A stretch of 64,000 bases of DNA, from contig JACRJM010000004.1 in assembly GCA_016219965.1 (NCBI GenBank), forward strand, positions 1 through 64,000, in the 5' to 3' direction. Shown one piece after another: positions 2,057 to 22,869 of the stretch (within the stretch, counting starts at the first letter, position 1; every line of letters begins with the position of its first letter). This DNA is from Candidatus Schekmanbacteria bacterium. GTDB lineage: Bacteria; Schekmanbacteria; GWA2-38-11; J061. The notes under the pieces are model-generated. The model had not been told where the DNA came from and did not search any database. It was given only the letters and a program-made list of their open reading frames with translations. The position numbers were made by a program, and so were the translations under genes.

Positions 2057-3313
2057 ATGTCAATAAAAGATGAAGTCATTGCCATAGCGGAAAGGGCAAA
2101 AAAAGCAGGGGGAAAGCTTTCTAATCTTTCCACGGCAGATAAGAATAAAGCGCTTCTCATGATGGCAGAGGGGCTTGAGAAAAAAACTGCGGAGATACTA
2201 AAGGCAAATAAGATAGATATTGATAATGCCCGCAAAAACAATCTGAGTGATGCCATGATAGATAGATTGATGCTCGATGAAGGGCGCATAAAAAAGCTTG
2301 CAAAGGGAGTAAGGGAAGTTTCAGAGCTTTCTGATCCGTGCGGAGAAATAATAAAGATGTGGAAACGCCCCAACGGGATGCTCATAGGGCGGATGAGAGT
2401 GCCTGTGGGTGTTATCGGGATAATTTATGAATCCCGTCCCGGCGTTACTGCTGATGCAGCAGCTCTATGTCTTAAATCAGGGAATGCCATAATACTGCGC
2501 GGCGGGAGCGAGGCGATAAACTCAAACTGCATAATTGCTGAAGTGCTCTCTGAGGCTGCTTTGAAATGCGGAGTTCCCAGAGGTTCGATTGAGATAATCC
2601 CGTCAACCGACAGGCAGGCGGTCCTTGAGATGTTGAAGCTTGACCGCTTTATAGACATGATAATCCCGCGGGGAGGTGAGGGACTTATCAATTTTGTGAA
2701 AGAAAATTCCCGCATACCTGTTATCTGCCATGACAAAGGATTGTGTCTTACCTTCGTTGATTCGAGCGCTGACATTGATATGGCGGTTAATGTCTGCTTT
2801 AATGCGAAAGTGCAGCGCCCCGGTGTATGCAATGCAATGGAAACTTTGCTCGTCCACAGGGATATAGCAGAAAAATTTCTTCCCATCATTGGCGAGGAAT
2901 ATAAGAAAGCCGGAGTTGAACTTCGGGGATGTCCTGCGACCAGAAAGATTCTCCCCTGGGCGAAGGACGCTACGGAAGATGATTTCAATACGGAATTCTT
3001 GAACCTCACTCTTTCGGTGAAGGTTGTTGGCTCCATTGATGAGGCGATGGAGCATATAGACCGCTATGGCTCACATCACTCTGATGCAATTGTGACCAAT
3101 GATTATAACAACTCCCAGAGATTTCTGAGAGAAGTTGATTCGTCTTCTGTGTTTGTCAATGCCTCGACAAGGCTTGCAGACGGAGGTGAATACGGGCTTG
3201 GCGCTGAGATGGGGATAAGCACGCAAAAGCTTCATTGCCGCGGTCCTATGGGTCTTGAGGAACTTACTACGACTAAATTCATAGTTTATGGTAAAGGGCA
3301 ATTGAGGGAATAA
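2057..3313 (+). CDS. proA: Gamma-glutamyl phosphate reductase
   Basis: NADPH-dependent reductase converting gamma-glutamyl phosphate to glutamate semialdehyde, the second proline step. At 418 residues it is the usual full length. It shows the aldehyde-dehydrogenase-like fold with GVIGIIYESRPGVT near residue 115 and the catalytic cysteine in QRPGVCNAMET near residue 256. The C-terminus carries the typical GLGAEMGISTQKLHCRGPMG region. The gene sits directly behind proB and 8 bp ahead of nadD. proC was not seen in the window. Confidence 0.97.
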   Translation: MSIKDEVIAIAERAKKAGGKLSNLSTADKNKALLMMAEGLEKKTAEILKANKIDIDNARKNNLSDAMIDRLMLDEGRIKKLAKGVREVSELSDPCGEIIKMWKRPNGMLIGRMRVPVGVIGIIYESRPGVTADAAALCLKSGNAIILRGGSEAINSNCIIAEVLSEAALKCGVPRGSIEIIPSTDRQAVLEMLKLDRFIDMIIPRGGEGLINFVKENSRIPVICHDKGLCLTFVDSSADIDMAVNVCFNAKVQRPGVCNAMETLLVHRDIAEKFLPIIGEEYKKAGVELRGCPATRKILPWAKDATEDDFNTEFLNLTLSVKVVGSIDEAMEHIDRYGSHHSDAIVTNDYNNSQRFLREVDSSSVFVNASTRLADGGEYGLGAEMGISTQKLHCRGPMGLEELTTTKFIVYGKGQLRE

Positions 3314-7901: not shown

Positions 7902-8888
7902 ATGGAAAAACGAAAACTTGGAAGTCAGGGGCTCATGGTTTCAGGACAGGGTTTGGGTTGCATGGGGATGACAGATTTCTATGGAATTCGCGATGATGAG
8001 GAATCCATAGCGACAATTCAACTTGCGCTTGAGCTTGGTATTAATTTAATTGATACGGCAGACATGTATGGCCCTTTTACAAATGAGGAGTTAGTCGGCA
8101 AGGCTATTCGCGGCAGACGCGCTGAAGTCATACTTGCAACCAAGTTTGGCATAGTGCGTAGCAGTGATCCGAAGTTCCGTGCAATAAACGGCAGACCTGA
8201 ATATGTTCGCTCATCGTGCGACGGTTCCTTGAAGCGGTTGGGAGTGGATTATATCGACCTCTATTATCAGCATCGCATAGACCCCAACGTTCCTGTCGAG
8301 GAAACTGTAGGAGCAATGTCTGAATTGGTAAAGGCAGGGAAGGTCCGCTATATTGGATTATCTGAAGCTTCTCCGGAAACTATCAGACGAGCCCATGCAG
8401 TTCATCCTATAACAGCGTTGCAATCTGAATATTCTCTCTGGAGCAGAGAAGTAGAGGCAGAGATATTGATAACCGTCAGGGAACTTGGGATAGGGTTTAT
8501 TGCATACAGCCCTCTCGGGCGTGGTTTCCTCACTGGAGCAATTAAAAGCCCTGAAGATTTTGAGCCGGGCGACTTCCGCAGGAGTTTACCGAGATTTCAG
8601 GGAGAGAACTTCAAAAAAAATCTTGAACTCGTGGATAAAATAAAAGAGATTTCCAAATCAAAAGGAATTACGCCTGCACAGTTAGCCCTTGCCTGGGTGC
8701 ATGGACAGGGAGAAGACATATTCTCCATACCCGGCACAAAGAGACGCAAATACCTTAAGGAGAATATATCCGCATTTGATGTGACGCTTTCAAAATCTGA
8801 ACTTGATTATATCTCTAAAATAATTCCGCTGGAAGCGGTGCGAGGAACGAGATATTCCGAAAAGATAATGAAGATGCTGGATTCCTGA
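7902..8888 (+). CDS. Aldo/keto reductase
   Basis: NADPH-type aldo/keto reductase of 328 residues, TIM barrel. The catalytic tetrad can be read as Asp and Tyr in [10 protein letters not shown] near residue 55, Lys in ILATKFG near 83 and His in LYYQHRIDP near 127. The C-terminal cofactor region includes [13 protein letters not shown]. The sequence looks like the group of AKRs related to pyridoxal or plant auxin-type reductases, but the substrate is unknown. The start has AAGGGG at good distance. It follows the AOR gene closely, which suggests linked aldehyde/alcohol chemistry. Confidence 0.92.
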
Positions 8889-10790: not shown

Positions 10791-10808
10791 TAGGCACAGT
10801 AATTGCAT
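10791..10808 (+). promoter_or_regulatory. Candidate sigma-54 (-24/-12) promoter of the pilin operon
   Basis: The sequence tAGGCACAGTAATTGCAT matches the RpoN consensus TTGGCAC-N5-TTGCA with one mismatch. The invariant GG at 10793-10794 and GC at 10805-10806 are separated by exactly 10 bp. Transcription would begin near 10818, about 57 bp before the riboswitch. Type IV pilin genes are commonly sigma-54 dependent. No enhancer protein gene is adjacent. Confidence 0.65.
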
Positions 10809-10874
10809 GTTCGCCAAAGCAACTTAATAAATTTGGAGAATAAGAAAAATATTAAACTTTAAATTGTAATTTAG

Positions 10875-10962
10875 CGGGTCTCCGAAAAGGTAAACCCTGT
10901 GAGAGCAGGGGGCACAAAGCTTCGAATCCTTCAAGGGATGGTCGGGCTACCGAAGAGACAAA
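10875..10962 (+). promoter_or_regulatory. GEMM-I riboswitch (probable cyclic di-GMP sensor)
   Basis: The layout fits GEMM-I. P1 is formed by GTCTC (10878-10882) and GAGAC (10955-10959). The conserved GGTAAACC is at 10889-10896. A CCCTGT/GCAGGG hairpin is capped by the GNRA loop GAGA at 10901-10904. CACAAAGC is at 10913-10920, and GGGATGG...GGGCTACCGA ends at 10953. The base corresponding to Vc2 G20 appears to be G (10889), which favours cyclic di-GMP over cyclic AMP-GMP, but this rests on a hand alignment. The 3' end of the aptamer can also pair with the following terminator arm, giving a switch. Confidence 0.85.
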
Positions 10963-10985
10963 TGAAACTAAGGCAGATTTAAGAG

Positions 10986-11024
10986 GCCTGTTTCTTCGGT
11001 ATTGAAGAAACAGGCTTTTTTTTT
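10986..11024 (+). terminator. Intrinsic terminator acting as riboswitch expression platform
   Basis: A perfect 12-bp stem (GCCTGTTTCTTC at 10986-10997 with GAAGAAACAGGC at 11004-11015), a 6-nt loop and nine T residues. Its 5' arm region 10990-10999 can instead pair over 10 positions, one a G-U, with 10950-10959, the end of the aptamer including the P1 3' strand. The two structures exclude each other. Ligand binding that stabilises P1 should free the terminator, so the expected output is OFF with ligand. Confidence 0.88.
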
Positions 11025-11038
11025 GGAAGAGAGTGATT

Positions 11039-11431
11039 GTGAAGGGGAACATTTTAAAACAGAATAAAGGATTTACTTTTGTTGAGTCGCTCGTTGCCTT
11101 ACTTATATTTTCAATTGTAATGATAGGTTTCAATGCTCTTTTAACAACCGTCATAAAAAACAATTTCTTAAATAAAAAAATTACCACAGCAACAGCCCTT
11201 GTTAGAGACAAAATCGAGGATTTAAAAAGCAAAGGATACACAAGTTCTGATTTATCTTCTGGTTCCCATTCGGATTCAAATAATCCAATTAATGAAATAG
11301 GAACAAACGGAGGAATATTTACCAGGAATTGGAATGTTGTTGAGGCAAGCAGCATGAAAAACGTTACTGTCACAGTCAGCTGGGATTCTGGTAAGCATAA
11401 TGTATCTCTTACAGCAAAGGTTATTCAATAG
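11039..11431 (+). CDS. PilV-like minor type IV prepilin
   Basis: Prepilin-like protein with leader ending KQNKG and mature N-terminus FTFVESLVALLIFSIVMIG, keeping the Glu at mature position 5 and the long hydrophobic helix. Prepilin peptidase should cut after the Gly. The GTG at 11039 is preferred to the GTG at 11033 because GGAAGA at 11025-11030 is 8 nt away. The start lies only 15 nt past the T-run of the riboswitch terminator. It is the first gene of a pilV-pilW-pilX-like operon whose products prime assembly of pili or pseudopili. Confidence 0.85.
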   Translation: MKGNILKQNKGFTFVESLVALLIFSIVMIGFNALLTTVIKNNFLNKKITTATALVRDKIEDLKSKGYTSSDLSSGSHSDSNNPINEIGTNGGIFTRNWNVVEASSMKNVTVTVSWDSGKHNVSLTAKVIQ

Positions 11432-11435
11432 CTCT

Positions 11436-12338
11436 ATGGCTATAAAGATAAAAAATAAAAATGGTTTTACCTTGATTGAGTTATTGGTTGCATTGTTTAT
11501 TTCATTAGCGACTGCATCTATAGCATATACGTTTATGAGCTTTAATGAAAAGGCTTACACGGTTGAGGACGAAAAACTTCATATGCAGCAGAGCGCAAGG
11601 ACAGCAGTTGAAATGATTCAGAGGGATATTTTGTTTGCAGGAATGGGTTCTAATGTATTCTGTTCGCAGGGTAATGTTGGATCAATAAAACCTGCTTATG
11701 GAGGAGGCGGTGCTAACTCTGATTCCATATCAGTATATTCTCCGACAGCTGATCCTGTTCTAACTACTCTAAGTATTGATATGGCGGATTCATCTGATCA
11801 GTTTCAGGTCACCGATGTATCAGGATTTGTAGGTTGGGTGAACGGTAAGGGAATAATCTGCGATGGTGTTAATTATCAGAGATTCAACATTAATCTGGTT
11901 CAGGAGGATACTAAAACAATTCAACACAATAGCGATTATCCAGCGGCACATCAATATGCTGCTGGTACGCAACTGTTACTTTTCAAAGGGAAGGAGATGA
12001 TTTACTCCATAGATAATTCTGATCCCTCGCATCCTTCACTTACTAAAGAAATATTATCTTGGGACAATACGCTCAGTTTAGGCGCTAGTTCCGGAAGAAA
12101 GATTGTCGCTAAAGATGTTGAAGCAATGCAGTTGGTTTATATTCTGGCTAATGGAACTTCTACTCAAAATCCCGCTAATCCCAGTGATATCCGGGCTGTG
12201 AAAATAACTTTCGTGGCGAGGACAGAACATTCTGATTCAAATTACAATCAGGGAGATAGCCCTTTTACTGCACTGAATGAAAGAGATGGATACAGAAGAA
12301 TGCTTTTGAGCGCAATAATCAAACCACGGAATATTTAA
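11436..12338 (+). CDS. PilW-like minor type IV prepilin
   Basis: About 300 residues. Leader MAIKIKNKNG is followed by FTLIELLVALFISLATASIAY, a standard prepilin cleavage site and helix with Glu5. A PilW-type C-terminal part follows, with QSARTAVEMIQRDILFAGMG typical of PilW proteins. The ATG at 11436 gives a short leader. An in-frame ATG at 11400 lies inside the preceding gene and would add 12 residues. There are 4 bp between the two genes, so translation is probably coupled. Confidence 0.85.
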   Translation: MAIKIKNKNGFTLIELLVALFISLATASIAYTFMSFNEKAYTVEDEKLHMQQSARTAVEMIQRDILFAGMGSNVFCSQGNVGSIKPAYGGGGANSDSISVYSPTADPVLTTLSIDMADSSDQFQVTDVSGFVGWVNGKGIICDGVNYQRFNINLVQEDTKTIQHNSDYPAAHQYAAGTQLLLFKGKEMIYSIDNSDPSHPSLTKEILSWDNTLSLGASSGRKIVAKDVEAMQLVYILANGTSTQNPANPSDIRAVKITFVARTEHSDSNYNQGDSPFTALNERDGYRRMLLSAIIKPRNI

Positions 12339-12373: not shown

Positions 12374-14041
12374 ATGAATAGAAGCAAAAACAATAAAGGC
12401 GCGGCGCTCATTATCATTCTGCTTATTAGTGCTGTTCTAACCATTCTGGGTACAGTAGCAATGACCATCTCAACTACTGAGAATAAGATGAACAGCAAAC
12501 AGCAGACTTCAAGTCAGGCTTTGTATGCTGCTGATGGAGGAGTAAATCATAGTATTTTAAATCTTAGAGCTCAGGTTAAAACAATTTTACCAGGCAATCT
12601 GAATTCAGTAACGGATGGTTCTTTGATTAATCAGTATGTGGTAAACAATGATCCGGCTGGATTCATGGCAGCTTATGGTGGTTTTAGCAAGATCAACAAT
12701 CAGAAAGCGACTCTTACATCTGTTTCCGGATCACTGGGACAGGGGAATTATACAGCGACTATTACCGTAGAATCCGATGGCAATCCCTCAAGCCCAAGCA
12801 CCAATATTTACGTGTTTCCCTTTAAATACACTATTCTCTCTAATGGATCCGGACTTAACAACTCGTCAAAAAGTATTATAGCTAACGGTACATTTGAAGT
12901 TACTGTAATGAGATCCAGTTTTGCACGTTACGCCCTTTTTACTAATGACCAAAGAAATGCTGTTGGTACCAGGGTCTGGTTTACGGGAAACACAAATTTT
13001 AAAGGACCAGTGCATACTAATGGCAGATTTAATTTCGCGAATAACCCAAGCGGAAGTTTCAGCGGATTGGTTACAAGTGCAGGAAGAGACTGCCCTACAT
13101 GTGCTCCAAGCAGTATGGCTAATTATTATAATAATGGTTCTATGAAAACCCTTGATGATAACCACAATGGTACGAAGGATGTTCCGACATTTACTGCTGG
13201 TTTTAACCGTGGTGTCAACCCAATAAATCTACCAACTTTAACAGATGCTGACACTCAAAAGAAAAGAGCTTTAGGTTTGTCTGATGCAGACTCAATTCCT
13301 GCTAAATCTACCGGAGTTTATGTTGAAACAGCTTCCGGCAATGTTAAAGGAGGAATTTATATAAAAGGAGCATCATCCATAACATTGGGGAAAGATGCAT
13401 CTGGAAATGAAAAACATACCATTGTTCAAGGTTCAACAACTTCAACCATAACCGTTAACAGGACAACTAATCAAACTATGGTTACCACTGGAAGTACCAC
13501 AAATACATATAATGGCATATTGAATGGCATGATATTCAACGATGGTGGGGATATTACAAGTTTTTCCGGAACAGTTCAGAAAGATTCTCAGATCACTGTT
13601 GCTTCATCAAACAATATAACCATTACTAATAATGTTACTTATGAAGATGTTAATTCAGGGCCTCCGGTAAATGCTTCCGGAAAAACAAATGTTTTAGGAA
13701 TTGTTTCCTGGAATGGAAACGTAAAAATAGGGGCAACAGCTCCTAATAACATTAATGTTCATGCCACTGTTATGTCCGTAAACGGCGAGTTTAATGTGAC
13801 TAATTATAACACAGGAAGCCCACGAGGAACAGCGACAGTTCTTGGCGGTGTCATAGAAAACACTTATGGTGCATTCGGGACATTCAGCGGGACAACACCG
13901 GTTAGCGGTTACGGAAGGAATTTTGTTTATGATCAAAGAATGGGTGAAGGTATGAGTCCCCCATTTTTTCCTACAACGAGCAGTTTTACAAGCCAACAAA
14001 GTGGTCTCGATAATCTGCCTGTTTGGAAAGGAGGTGGTTAA
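12374..14041 (+). CDS. PilX-like pilus assembly protein, large
   Basis: A 555-residue protein with the PilX-type N-terminus: a short charged leader, then KGAALIIILLISAVLTILGTVAMT and SSQALYAADGGVNHSI. This lacks a classical FTLIE site but matches PilX N-terminal domains. The remainder is Ser/Thr/Asn/Gly-rich and beta-prone, much longer than classical PilX (about 200 residues), and includes CPTC near residue 240. It probably forms a tip or surface part of the minor-pilin complex. SD-like AAGGA lies before the ATG. It is third in the riboswitch-controlled operon. Confidence 0.8.
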   Translation: MNRSKNNKGAALIIILLISAVLTILGTVAMTISTTENKMNSKQQTSSQALYAADGGVNHSILNLRAQVKTILPGNLNSVTDGSLINQYVVNNDPAGFMAAYGGFSKINNQKATLTSVSGSLGQGNYTATITVESDGNPSSPSTNIYVFPFKYTILSNGSGLNNSSKSIIANGTFEVTVMRSSFARYALFTNDQRNAVGTRVWFTGNTNFKGPVHTNGRFNFANNPSGSFSGLVTSAGRDCPTCAPSSMANYYNNGSMKTLDDNHNGTKDVPTFTAGFNRGVNPINLPTLTDADTQKKRALGLSDADSIPAKSTGVYVETASGNVKGGIYIKGASSITLGKDASGNEKHTIVQGSTTSTITVNRTTNQTMVTTGSTTNTYNGILNGMIFNDGGDITSFSGTVQKDSQITVASSNNITITNNVTYEDVNSGPPVNASGKTNVLGIVSWNGNVKIGATAPNNINVHATVMSVNGEFNVTNYNTGSPRGTATVLGGVIENTYGAFGTFSGTTPVSGYGRNFVYDQRMGEGMSPPFFPTTSSFTSQQSGLDNLPVWKGGG

Positions 14042-14097
14042 ACTAAAATTATTTTTTGTATCGCTTAAACAGAATACAACATAAGGAGGAGATTTAT

Positions 14098-14331
14098 ATG
14101 AGTATGAACAAAACTGCGTTAAGAAAAATCACGATTTGTATGTTTTTGATTTTATTCCTCACTCCCTTTTTCTCTTCCGGTTTGGCGAAATTTTCAGAAA
14201 CTAAAGTGATGCTGGGAATAACACAAGATACTGTCTCAATTTATATAGCTTCCGGGGAAGGAGATGATCCAACCACTCCAAGCCCAGAGCCAAACCCGAC
14301 GCCTGACGGAGGAGACATATTGACTCAGTAG
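14098..14331 (+). CDS. Small exported proline-rich protein, unknown function
   Basis: A 77-residue product starting at an ATG with a strong AAGGAGGAG site (14083-14091). It has a hydrophobic signal segment around residues 12-28, then a short folded part and an acidic/proline tail (TPSPEPNPTPDGG). The ATG-less extension upstream to 14056 has no support. It closes the pilin operon and is followed by a terminator, so it probably serves pilus assembly or surface display. I do not recognise a family. Confidence 0.72.
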   Translation: MSMNKTALRKITICMFLILFLTPFFSSGLAKFSETKVMLGITQDTVSIYIASGEGDDPTTPSPEPNPTPDGGDILTQ

Positions 14332-17700: not shown

Positions 17701-17754
17701 AGGTGCCGTTGGTGAGAATTCTATCTCTTATATTAAAAGCCTGGGAGAGATTTG

Positions 17755-20700
17755 GTGAAATACAGATTGTTATTCTTCCTCTGCTTATTTGCTTTTATTC
17801 CTTTACGGCTCTATGCTGAAGATTCTCCTCCGCAGGGTCTTTCAGCAGTGCTTGTTCCCGATTATGACCTTTATGGCAATGCGCAAAAAAGGCTCATGGT
17901 TTCATGGACGCCCTATGATGACATAAGTATCAGCTGCTGTGACTACAATATAAAAGCGCTTGCGGGTTATGAGATAACACTTGGTGTTCAAAGAGCATGC
18001 ATGCACGATGGAATGAGTACCCATTTTGAAATTGGAATGGATAATTCCTACTCCACATTGCTTTGGGCAGATACTAATTCGGTGCAGGTTTATGTTTATG
18101 CGCGTTTAAGATTTGGTTGTTTTAGATGCGGTACCGAAGGAGATCGCCTTACTCCCGCTGCCACATTTTTTATAACGCCGACAGAACTTTGTAATACTCC
18201 AATCTCTGTGCCTCCTGCTGAACAAGATGTGTGTCAGACGCAGAAGTTAAGCGTTGGTGAGCCGGTAAGTGTTTTAAACGGCGAGATGACAAATGAAGAA
18301 ATTGATTTCAAAGTCAGTGGTATCAATATGGATCTAGAATTCAAACGTTCCTATTCAAACAGGCTTCAGATCCCAGCTTCTTCTTCAGGTGTATCAACGC
18401 CTGTCAGCAAATCCAATGGTTCTATCGTGTTTAGCGAACTTTCTGAAATGGGCTATGACGGGGTTTCGTCAGCGTCTCCTTCAAGGACTTTAACGCTTGA
18501 GAGGGATGGGATTCCTATGGGGTATGGCTGGACCCACAATTTCAATGTGCACATTGATTTTCTTCAGTCTGGTAATGCCATAAGATTTTTTGATGAAAAG
18601 GGAAGAAGCTCTTATTTCTATAAAAAAGATGGAGTCTATCTTCCTTCGCTCGAGCCATCTGCATATGAATTTACCGACAATGGCAACGATACATATACGC
18701 TTATTTATCCGGGCGGCAAAACGCTCTTATTCGGCAGCGACGGAAGACTTCTTTCAGTTACTCATCCTGCCGGCAACAGCATCGAGCTTTCATATAATTC
18801 CAGCGGACAGCTTACAGAGCTATACGATACCATAGGAAATGCATTTACTATCAGTTATGACTCTTCCGGGCGGATGACTGCCGTCTATGGTCCGCAAACT
18901 GCAAAAAACCTGACAGGCAAACTTGCTGAATATCAGTATGCAAGCTATGGGCGTCTTCAGAAGGTAATTTATCCTGACGGCTCGTCAACTACGTATGAAT
19001 ACGGAGATGCAAATGATAATGTCAATATTACGAAGATAACCGGGCGTGATGGAAGAGTTCATACATATATTTACGATTCGCAGGACAGGGTTTCGAGCTT
19101 TTCTGAAGATAACGGGCAATCCAATTCGACACTCACATATAATCCGAATAGCTGGTACACGACTCTAACTAATACGCGCGGCTATTCTACAAACTTTTAT
19201 TATGATGTAAAAAACCGTTCCGGATTTCTAAAAAACTCAACAGGCGGTTCAACATGCTCAACCTGTACTTCCCCATATTATTCTTACACCAATGACAGCA
19301 TGGGGAGGACAACAGCGGTAACAGATTATTACGGGAATATAACTCTTTACGAGCTTTTTGATTCTGAAGGGAAGCCGGAAAGAATAATATACGGCAGCGG
19401 TACGATAGACGAAGTTGTGATGACCTACACTTATCATCCGTCACTTGATATCCCTGTGTCATTGACGACGCCAAGTGTGTTCGGCAGCAGCAGCGGTGAC
19501 AGAGAAATCGTTGTTGATTATGATAATGATGGAGATGGAACACCTAATGAAAGCCCAGAAGCTTTGCCGCAAAAGCTTATTCAGAAAGGTTATACAAAGG
19601 ATGCCTCCCGGCAGATCATCCCCTATAACTATGTATCAACTTTTTCTTATGATGAATATTCAAGACTTATTTCCGCCGATGGCCCGCGGGGAGATGTATC
19701 TGATACAGCATATTTTGAATATTATTCATTTGATATCTCAAATGGCATGAATCGCGGCAGGCTTAAAAAGATCACCGATACTGCCGGCAATGTCTATGTT
19801 TATGACTTGTACGATATTTACGGAAATCCGGGGAAGATCACTTATCCGGCCGGTGCTGTTTATGAACTTGATTATGATTTGAGCGGCAACCTCATTGAGA
19901 TTAAGAATGGTGAGTCAGTTCGTAGCTATGAATATTATCAGGGAGGGAAGGTGCATTACGAGATCCTGCCTGAAGGGAATATCGTCGAGTACATTTACAA
20001 TGAGCTTGGGGATGTGAGCAAGGTGAAGCTGAGGCGAGGACCAGGAAAGACATCATCTGTGATTGAAACATCGCTCTATGAATATGACCGCGAAAGAAAC
20101 CTCACTGCCTATGAAGTTAAAGAAGGAGATGAAAACGGTGTACGCGCGCTCAGGGAAGAGTATGTGTATGCAGCCTGGAATAAATTGAAGACTATTTATC
20201 CTGAAGCGGGAAATAATAGCATAAGTTATGGAATTGGTCAGCACCTCAAGTTTGAAGGAGCAAGAGAGCCTGTCACTCCTGTAGGCACACCCGGATGGTT
20301 TTATTATTATGACCATATGCTACGCCTGATAAAGGTTGCCGAGTTTCCAAATTCTCTGAATCTTATTACGCAATACACATACGACAACTTCGGAAGCATT
20401 AAGTCCATGACAGACTCAGCAGGAAATACCACCAATTTTGAGTACGATGACATGGGAAGGCTTCTTTACGTTAATTCAGAGGAAAGAGGTGAAAGCATTT
20501 TCTCTTATGATGAGATGTCAGAGCCTGCGACAATTATAGATGGAAATGGCAGGACAAAGCAGATTTCATATGACTCCGAAGGAAGAGTGACAGGCATTGC
20601 ATATGAGAACGGTGATGATATAAGCCTTATTTATGATGAAGCGGAATCAAGCTATGGCAAAGGAAGGCTCACTTCAGTTGATGATGGAAAATCGGTCATA

Positions 20701-22869
20701 CGCTATAACTATGATGAAACTGGTAATGTAACAAGCGAAGTCAAAAGCATGGATGGTAAAAATTATAATATGACTTATGCGTATGATAAAAACGGAAGGG
20801 TGGCTAAGAATATCTATCCTTCGGGCTTGGAAGTTTCCTATGAGTATCCGTGGGGCGGTGATTATCCTGACAGGATAAAAATAAAAAAAGAAAATGGCTC
20901 TGTTGCCGAGGTTGATTTCGAACGGGGTGCATTTGGAAGCGAAAAGGTAATTACATATTCAAATGGCGTGAGAGAAAACATTGCTTATGATTCTCAGTTC
21001 CGCGTCACAGGGATCACAGCCGGCAAAGGCTCAGGCAGTAGTTTCCTTGAACTTGATATTTCGCGAGACTGGAACGGGAATATCCTTGAGATAGCAGATG
21101 GAATTGATTCATCGGATGGCTATTCATATTTGTACGATTCTTTTAATCGTCTAATATCTGCCTCAGGTCCATTTGGTGAAATGAGCTTTGCATATGACAA
21201 TGTGGGAAACAGAGTCACTTCAATTCTTAATGGAGGAGAAAAAAATTATACCTATTCTGGGAACCGCCTTATGGGCGTTTCCGGCGACACGTCGGGAACT
21301 TTTTCTTATAACGATGCAGGAATGCTTGTATCTGACGGAGAGCACATTTATAATTATGATAAAAATAGCATGCTGGAGTCGGTTGTTAAGAACGGTGATA
21401 AGGCAGGGCAATACAGATATGATTATATGGGGATGCGTGACAGAAAAATAAAGCATGGCAATTGGCAAAACTATTTTTATGATCTTGACGGCAGACTGAT
21501 CAGTATAACTGACAGGAACGGGAATCAGGTCTCTGATTTTGTTTATGCAGGGGAAAGAAGGATTGCCGCTGTAATGCCTGATGCTGACACAGCGCCTCAA
21601 AGTTACAGGGGAAAGGGAATTAAGAAAAAAACAGGGATTAAGGTTATTGGAAAATACACTGTTACAGTTGATGTTGGCGGAGGAAATCCAAAGCTGAAGA
21701 TAAAGAAGCGTATAAAAAAGAGAAAAGGGAAGAGCTTTAAGTCAAAGGTTGAATCTGATGTTGATGTATATGGTTCTGCATCATGGGACAGCATAAAAAA
21801 GATAGTGTCTGCAAATGTTACCTTGAAGAATAAAGACAGCGCAAAGACCTTATATGATGTAGATGCCAGACTCACTTATACCAGCGTTGCTTCCGTGAAA
21901 GTTAGAAATCGGGATGGCACGACTTCAGATGATAAACCTTACTGGTATTATGGGAAGATAGCGGCAGGTGATGAAAACATCGTTCATTGGGAGTTCTCAG
22001 ATCCTGATATCGTGTCTTTTACTTTCAGCGTCACTGTGATGGGTTCGTACAATCCAGACGGACAGAAGATTTACTATTACCACAACGACCATCTTGGCAG
22101 ACCTGTAATCATGACAGATGAGGATGGCAGCGTTGCATGGAAGGGAAACTATTATCCATTCGGGAAACTTTATCAATCTGAAGGCACGATAAAGAATAAC
22201 TTCCGTTTTCCGGGACAATGGGAAGATGAAGAGAGCGGTTTGTTCTATAACGGCGCCCGCTATTACGACCCATCAACAGGCCGCTACATAAGCCCCGATC
22301 CAGTCCTCGGCGACCAATACCTCCCGCAAACCCTGAACCCCTATGTGTATGTGACGAACAATCCGTTGGCTCTGACCGACCCGGAGGGGATTTGGCCGGA
22401 GGATATTCATAACAAAATAATTGGTCGTGGATTAAGTGATATACTGCTCCCAAATGAAATTAAAACTCTTGAGAAGGCAAGCAAAGATATAGATAATCCT
22501 TTAAATCAAGGTAAGGATTCATCTTATCAGCATGCAATGTGTTCACCCTGTCAAACGCCGCAGGAAGCTGAAAGATTATGGAACTTATTTATAGAGCAAC
22601 AACTTCAAAATGCCATTAATGCACCTAACAGAAAAGAAGCAATTTATGAACTTGGTAAGGGCATGCATGCCTTGATGGATAGCACATCACCAACTCATAA
22701 GGGTTTTCAGGTGTGGGGCGGGATGTGGCCGCCATCAATATGGCGTGAGGATTTAAAGCACACTAGAGGAGAAAGAAATATCTCCTATAATGAATTGCAA
22801 CAAACATCAAGAATAGTAAGAGACTACTACTTAAAATACCAACAGATGAAAATGAGGTGTAGCAGATGA
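17755..22869 (+). CDS. RHS/YD-repeat protein with signal peptide and variable C-terminal toxin-like tip
   Basis: About 1704 residues. A signal peptide (residues 1-22, ...LRLYAE) is followed by an N-terminal cysteine-rich region, a long run of YD repeats (such as YEYGDANDNV, YDFDGRL-like units) and the RHS core ending in YYHNDHLGRP, FYNGARYYDPSTGRYISPDP and NPLALTDPEG near residue 1545. The last ~159 residues form the tip, with sharply more AT-rich codons. The tip holds DIHNKII, SSYQHAM and GMHALMDSTSPTHKGFQ, a His/Asp pattern reminiscent of the zinc phospholipase C/P1 nuclease fold. GTG 17755 has GGGAG at 7 nt; a TTG just before is less likely. The next gene overlaps by 4 bp. Confidence 0.9.
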   Translation: MKYRLLFFLCLFAFIPLRLYAEDSPPQGLSAVLVPDYDLYGNAQKRLMVSWTPYDDISISCCDYNIKALAGYEITLGVQRACMHDGMSTHFEIGMDNSYSTLLWADTNSVQVYVYARLRFGCFRCGTEGDRLTPAATFFITPTELCNTPISVPPAEQDVCQTQKLSVGEPVSVLNGEMTNEEIDFKVSGINMDLEFKRSYSNRLQIPASSSGVSTPVSKSNGSIVFSELSEMGYDGVSSASPSRTLTLERDGIPMGYGWTHNFNVHIDFLQSGNAIRFFDEKGRSSYFYKKDGVYLPSLEPSAYEFTDNGNDTYTLIYPGGKTLLFGSDGRLLSVTHPAGNSIELSYNSSGQLTELYDTIGNAFTISYDSSGRMTAVYGPQTAKNLTGKLAEYQYASYGRLQKVIYPDGSSTTYEYGDANDNVNITKITGRDGRVHTYIYDSQDRVSSFSEDNGQSNSTLTYNPNSWYTTLTNTRGYSTNFYYDVKNRSGFLKNSTGGSTCSTCTSPYYSYTNDSMGRTTAVTDYYGNITLYELFDSEGKPERIIYGSGTIDEVVMTYTYHPSLDIPVSLTTPSVFGSSSGDREIVVDYDNDGDGTPNESPEALPQKLIQKGYTKDASRQIIPYNYVSTFSYDEYSRLISADGPRGDVSDTAYFEYYSFDISNGMNRGRLKKITDTAGNVYVYDLYDIYGNPGKITYPAGAVYELDYDLSGNLIEIKNGESVRSYEYYQGGKVHYEILPEGNIVEYIYNELGDVSKVKLRRGPGKTSSVIETSLYEYDRERNLTAYEVKEGDENGVRALREEYVYAAWNKLKTIYPEAGNNSISYGIGQHLKFEGAREPVTPVGTPGWFYYYDHMLRLIKVAEFPNSLNLITQYTYDNFGSIKSMTDSAGNTTNFEYDDMGRLLYVNSEERGESIFSYDEMSEPATIIDGNGRTKQISYDSEGRVTGIAYENGDDISLIYDEAESSYGKGRLTSVDDGKSVIRYNYDETGNVTSEVKSMDGKNYNMTYAYDKNGRVAKNIYPSGLEVSYEYPWGGDYPDRIKIKKENGSVAEVDFERGAFGSEKVITYSNGVRENIAYDSQFRVTGITAGKGSGSSFLELDISRDWNGNILEIADGIDSSDGYSYLYDSFNRLISASGPFGEMSFAYDNVGNRVTSILNGGEKNYTYSGNRLMGVSGDTSGTFSYNDAGMLVSDGEHIYNYDKNSMLESVVKNGDKAGQYRYDYMGMRDRKIKHGNWQNYFYDLDGRLISITDRNGNQVSDFVYAGERRIAAVMPDADTAPQSYRGKGIKKKTGIKVIGKYTVTVDVGGGNPKLKIKKRIKKRKGKSFKSKVESDVDVYGSASWDSIKKIVSANVTLKNKDSAKTLYDVDARLTYTSVASVKVRNRDGTTSDDKPYWYYGKIAAGDENIVHWEFSDPDIVSFTFSVTVMGSYNPDGQKIYYYHNDHLGRPVIMTDEDGSVAWKGNYYPFGKLYQSEGTIKNNFRFPGQWEDEESGLFYNGARYYDPSTGRYISPDPVLGDQYLPQTLNPYVYVTNNPLALTDPEGIWPEDIHNKIIGRGLSDILLPNEIKTLEKASKDIDNPLNQGKDSSYQHAMCSPCQTPQEAERLWNLFIEQQLQNAINAPNRKEAIYELGKGMHALMDSTSPTHKGFQVWGGMWPPSIWREDLKHTRGERNISYNELQQTSRIVRDYYLKYQQMKMRCSR

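Follow-up and report, generated by a model that had tools for sequence, protein, structure and literature searches.

The leader of the minor-pilin operon within the window (the whole stretch of 64,000 nucleotides analysed here) raises the question of which signal it reads and whether this signal turns the pilin genes on or off. We consider it very probable that the modelled RNA is a class I c-di-GMP riboswitch acting as a transcriptional OFF switch for this pilV-pilW-pilX-type operon. The aptamer, the terminator, the mutually exclusive helix and the operon were computed, while the ligand, the direction of the response, the use of the promoter and the biological role are what we infer from them.

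An earlier note on this DNA had proposed a GEMM-I aptamer at 10875-10962 and a covariance search as a means of checking it. This search was carried out and the GEMM model indeed matches above its gathering score. The general Rfam model for class I c-di-GMP aptamers (RF01051) yields 58.3 bits (gathering score 35), and RF03167 (c-di-GMP-I-GGC) yields 60.7 bits at 10880-10955 (gathering score 59; E value 7.6e-12, cmscan of the window). In the genome-wide covariance search the aptamer reaches an E value of 1e-13. Weak matches to PyrR, the L10 leader and other Rfam families stay under their cut-offs and were dismissed as chance. The aptamer comprises the following elements:

10878..10959, plus strand: class I c-di-GMP (GEMM-I) aptamer, P1 to P1 (covariance models)
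10878..10884, plus strand: 5' strand of P1, GUCUCCG (constrained fold of the aptamer state and covariance alignment)
10889, plus strand: G at Vc2 position 20, a base-selective contact, where cGAMP riboswitches have A (model alignment)
10895..10910, plus strand: P2 with a GNRA (GAGA) tetraloop at 10901-10904 (sequence, fold)
10916, plus strand: A at Vc2 position 47, stacking between the ligand bases (model alignment)
10950, plus strand: C at Vc2 position 92, Watson-Crick partner of the ligand, buried in the antiterminator by G10999 (model alignment, fold)

By eye and in the fold, P1 is formed by the pairs of 10878-10882 with 10955-10959 together with C10883-G10952 and G10884-C10951. The P2 loop conforms to GNRA in the window (GAGA) as well as in the two other aptamer copies of the genome (GCAA and GUAA). 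According to the model alignment, G10889, A10916 and C10950 occupy the pocket positions G20, A47 and C92 in Vc2 numbering (PMC11218506). As RF03167 outscores RF01051 and exceeds its own gathering threshold, the aptamer might also be a c-di-GMP-I-GGC variant sensing a different, perhaps unknown, ligand. We regard this as highly improbable, however, as the margin amounts to about 2 bits over RF01051 and just 1.7 bits over the cut-off, and the pocket reads G-A-C like that of ordinary c-di-GMP aptamers. The name GGC presumably describes the pocket bases. Since the variant consensus (CGAAG) has a G at the A47 position while the window reads CAAAG with A10916, we do not file the aptamer under this variant; the other two copies also carry A.

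Judged from sequence, the ligand is most likely c-di-GMP rather than cGAMP, a preference which is based on the G20/A47/C92 pocket and on the lack of a Hypr-type GGDEF domain and of a SMODS nucleotidyltransferase. It is at position 20 that cGAMP riboswitches differ. The A expected there for a GEMM-Ib aptamer is found in none of the three copies of the genome, all of which have G20. A G20A mutation enables a c-di-GMP aptamer to bind cGAMP (PMC7288161). Thirteen GGDEF matches (PF00990) are present in the genome, three of them degenerate; all ten motif-bearing domains possess the canonical Asp nine residues past the conserved Asn, at the place where Hypr cGAMP synthases carry Ser348. The CD-NTase search, which covered the SMODS clade, gave no match in the 98%-complete genome, and neither a Hypr GGDEF nor a CD-NTase that could serve as cGAMP synthase emerged from the PF00990 and SMODS searches.

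Should the natural ligand of the same switch nevertheless be cAMP-GMP (cGAMP), the locus would resemble the Geobacter GEMM-Ib riboswitches on pilus and cytochrome genes, which share fold and gene types with it and one of which controls the pilM pilus operon (PMC9262584). In addition, another aptamer copy in the genome lies upstream of a gene whose product has CxxCH haem motifs, and some G20 aptamers could be promiscuous, given that changing the equivalent G in Cd1 has little effect (PMC9262584). We still deem cGAMP very unlikely, not only in view of the uniform G20, the Asp of the ten GGDEF domains and the missing SMODS enzyme but also because the pilM cGAMP switch is ON-wired (PMC9262584) and a class II c-di-GMP aptamer precedes the homologous operon in other genomes. 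The proposal, made on the basis of G10889, that c-di-GMP is bound is thereby supported and the reservation concerning cAMP-GMP is narrowed, with the ligand still being a prediction.

Downstream of the aptamer, two structures compete for the same bases:

10949..10960, plus strand: 5' strand of the antiterminator, i.e. the P1 3' strand plus C92 (fold, shuffle test)
10986..11015, plus strand: intrinsic terminator hairpin of 12 bp (fold)
10989..11000, plus strand: 3' strand of the antiterminator, overlapping the 5' arm of the terminator (fold, shuffle test)
11016..11024, plus strand: nine-T tract of the terminator (sequence)

The terminator, which is present as the earlier note had described it, reads GCCUGUUUCUUC-GGUAUU-GAAGAAACAGGC. 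It was missed by a simple terminator scanner, probably because the stem rule of this scanner runs into the T tract. Likewise, the ten pairs, one of them G-U, which had been claimed between 10950-10959 (CCGAAGAGAC) and 10990-10999 (GUUUCUUCGG) do exist, and the folded helix turned out slightly longer with 12 pairs between 10949-10960 and 10989-11000. The complementarity of P1 strand and terminator arm is not a product of chance: an equally good pairing with the P1 3' strand is reached by two of 5000 shuffled terminator arms and by three of 31,990 16-mers sampled from the window.

Folding of growing transcripts, which had also been suggested, reveals the order aptamer, antiterminator, terminator. 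The base-pair probability of the outer P1 helix amounts to 0.88-0.98 for transcript ends up to about 10987. At ends 10990-10993 pairs begin to form between the P1 5' strand and the terminator arm as it emerges, the antiterminator attains a probability of 0.96-1.00 at ends 10999-11008, and from end 11017 onward the terminator forms with a probability of 1.00. Since the antiterminator captures both the P1 3' strand and C10950, antiterminator and bound aptamer are mutually exclusive in the fold, as had been postulated. The bound aptamer would free the terminator arm, so the switch is predicted to be OFF with ligand, a prediction from the earlier note which covariance, folding and comparative tests support. 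Across 10999-11008 the aptamer state lies about 7-8 kcal/mol above the free ensemble (8.1 at 3' end 11003). In view of this instability in the decision interval, the ligand would have to bind while the polymerase covers the 40 nt from the aptamer to the decision point, which implies kinetic control.

The genes at stake and the putative promoter are arranged as follows:

10792..10807, plus strand: candidate sigma-54 (RpoN) promoter AGGCACAGTAATTGCA of the -24/-12 type (10 of 11 consensus bases)
11039..11431, plus strand: first gene, PilV-like minor pilin with GTG start at 11039, an in-frame GTG at 11033 being also possible (Pfam N_methyl)
11436..12338, plus strand: PilW-like minor pilin, likely starting with ATG at 11436, the ORF opening at 11400 (Pfam N_methyl, weak PilW)
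12374..14041, plus strand: PilX_N / DUF4900 protein (Pfam, homologues)
14056..14331, plus strand: small predicted secreted protein, likely the last gene of the operon (position; no Pfam match)

Pfam thus confirms the minor-pilin operon (N_methyl pilin, PilW-like, PilX_N/DUF4900), and GTG 11039 follows the T run by 15 nt, exactly the distance that had been reported. The candidate sigma-54 site is located 88 nt before the covariance-model match, agrees with TGGCAC-N5-TTGCW in 10 of 11 bases and would place the transcript start near 10818. Sites of the same quality (10/11) occur at -96 of the C9 copy and at -90 of the riboswitch at a same-order locus; when the six upstream regions were shuffled 2000 times, three such loci were never reached (mean 0.02). 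Besides the consensus site, RpoN itself is encoded in the genome, where 53 perfect TGGCAY-N5-TTGCW sites contrast with one for the reversed control, so that by its sequence genome G000 possesses a large sigma-54 regulon. A scan for sigma-70 promoters upstream of the riboswitch yielded none above chance. The sigma-54 promoter would represent a second, testable layer of control. Further along the window, at 17752-22869 and downstream of a hybrid histidine kinase, a very large YD-repeat protein (Rhs-like by eye) is encoded.

We envisage that RNA polymerase starts near 10818, probably at the sigma-54 promoter, and that the aptamer is made first. Once transcription without ligand has passed about 10999, the emerging 10989-11000 strand would take up the P1 3' strand and C10950, and the 12-bp antiterminator would hold the terminator 5' arm, enabling transcription of the pilin genes. 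With c-di-GMP bound, P1 and C10950 would be locked, the 10986-11015 hairpin would form and the transcript would end 15 nt short of the first start codon. The minor pilins would then presumably be produced at low c-di-GMP.

The genome carries three class I aptamers, the one in the window and those on contigs C9 and C3, each of which is followed by a terminator. The C9 copy (G000:C9:42612-42687; L007 4613-4688) is situated about 400 nt upstream of a repeat-protein gene with CxxCH haem motifs, and the C3 copy upstream of a gene for a secreted Ig-like protein. A second aptamer considered in the stretch from the C9 riboswitch to the gene following it has no Rfam support and was rejected. Compared with the window (10878-10959), the C9 aptamer is 91% identical while its expression platform is just 46% identical, which, together with the different targets, suggests recent copying of the aptamer. 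Together with one locus in a same-family genome (G001_C40) and two in a same-order genome (G003_C135 and G003_C122), six related loci were compared, and at all six a separate terminator follows the aptamer. Pairing between the P1 strand and the terminator arm is individually significant for the window (2/5000), for C3 (0/5000) and for G001_C40 (1/5000). In the 16-nt test it is not individually significant for C9 (934/5000), G003_C135 (462/5000) and G003_C122 (2088/5000), in the folds of which linker bases contribute to the pairing. As the expression platforms align poorly, sequence covariation of the antiterminator across the six loci was left out of the evidence. Two further class I aptamers in these related genomes, L064 (G001:C116:1488-1578) and L068 (G003:C144:5016-5092), are devoid of a terminator and complementary to the Shine-Dalgarno region, so control looks translational there.

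These relatives also bear on the idea that the aptamer is intact but does not switch, or switches ON, the terminator being a constitutive attenuator. At equilibrium the full-length RNA folds into the terminated state in any case, several of the c-di-GMP riboswitches in C. difficile do not function (PMC6366702), and homologous operons in two other genomes (G118 and G255, see below) appear to be ON-wired. Yet no part of the terminator belongs to the aptamer, the match between terminator arm and P1 strand far exceeds chance, the pocket is intact, and the arrangement recurs, despite diverged sequence, at the loci from the same family and the same order, which makes a mere attenuator or an ON switch very unlikely.

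The preferred OFF switch has a close counterpart in Cd1 (Cdi-1-3) of the C. difficile flgB operon, an experimentally established OFF switch which likewise combines a class I aptamer with a separate downstream terminator and an antiterminator that engages the ligand-pairing C along with the P1 3' strand (PMC9262584, PMC6366702). Both the terminator outside the aptamer and the antiterminator derived from the P1 3' strand are found in the window. In Cd1 the antiterminator buries the ligand-pairing C, with the kinetic logic derived from NMR and modelling (PMC9262584), and all functional class I c-di-GMP switches of C. difficile are OFF (PMC6366702). Cd1 differs in its flagella target and its longer expression platform, whereas the window has its decision point about 40 nt past the aptamer and controls minor pilins. 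The pilM GEMM-I riboswitch of Geobacter metallireducens shares with the window a homologous aptamer before pilus genes and transcriptional control (PMC9262584) but responds to cGAMP, is ON and has a terminator using the aptamer's own strand, as opposed to the G20 and the separate terminator of the window. Type IV pilus genes are also controlled by termination in the case of the C. difficile c-di-GMP-II riboswitch Cdi-2-4 on pilA1 (PMC6366702), which differs in its unrelated aptamer class, its ON response and the major pilin as target. Bc1 and Bc2 of B. thuringiensis are terminator-based class I riboswitches with the same G20/A47/C92 pocket (PMC11218506), although their targets are others, Bc2 is ON and Bc1 has two terminators. 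We see the window element as an ordinary representative of the c-di-GMP-I class, predicted to be wired like Cd1, and its mechanism is already known. Cyclic dinucleotide riboswitches on pilus genes are known as well; as both pilM and pilA1 are ON, the window adds a case in which c-di-GMP is predicted to switch pilus-tip genes OFF.

Searching public genomes with the PilX/DUF4900 protein yielded three Omnitrophota MAGs (37-42% identity), and in all three a class I aptamer is located upstream of the pilin genes. In one of them (L070) some twenty bases separate the end of the terminator from the pilV-like start, similar to the window, and the modelled wiring looks, less clearly, OFF. In another Omnitrophota locus (L069) the pilin operon is followed, at a distance of a few kb, by a group I intron match (8223-8474, 57.8 bits).

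A PilX/DUF4900 protein (E below 1e-20) is encoded in 20 of the 386 genomes sampled. The PilX-type operon is preceded by a class I aptamer in G255 and, in two copies, in G118, and by a class II aptamer, structurally unrelated to class I, in G220 and G349; in the other stretches no such aptamer was detected. The terminators of G118 and G255 use the 3' strand of the aptamer itself as their 5' arm (GCCGGGUUACCG with GGUAAUCCGGC), and ON wiring as known from pilM is predicted. A perfect sigma-54 site stands immediately before the class II aptamer and the homologous minor-pilin operon in G220 and G349 (L109 about 3018-3132 and L111), where, by eye, the terminator 5' arm overlaps the aptamer end, which points to ON wiring.

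Taken together, the class I OFF-like, class I ON-like and class II ON-like loci appear to couple homologous pilin operons to c-di-GMP through aptamers of different kinds and with opposite signs. We see an even chance that a conserved pilV-pilW-pilX(DUF4900) operon has repeatedly and independently been placed under a c-di-GMP riboswitch in distant bacteria, as class I OFF in this genome, class I ON in G118 and G255 and class II ON-like in G220 and G349, several with sigma-54 directly upstream. If so, the operon would be a standing c-di-GMP target whose coupling is kept while the RNA sensor, and even the polarity, is swapped. As far as we searched, the same pilus operon behind two unrelated kinds of c-di-GMP sensor with opposite predicted polarity in distant bacteria is new. 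In a literature search largely outside the subscription journals, we found no work joining c-di-GMP riboswitches, pilins and Omnitrophota, nor any joining sigma-54 with a c-di-GMP riboswitch. The recurring coupling with its change of sign across lineages is the part worth following: homologous operons with two unrelated aptamers and opposite polarity allow one to ask whether the c-di-GMP input is retained in evolution while its sign changes, and which role minor pilins play in cells with low as compared to high c-di-GMP. With 19 RF01051 matches in 2.6 Mb, two of which precede PilX/DUF4900 genes, G118 is unusually rich in such aptamers.
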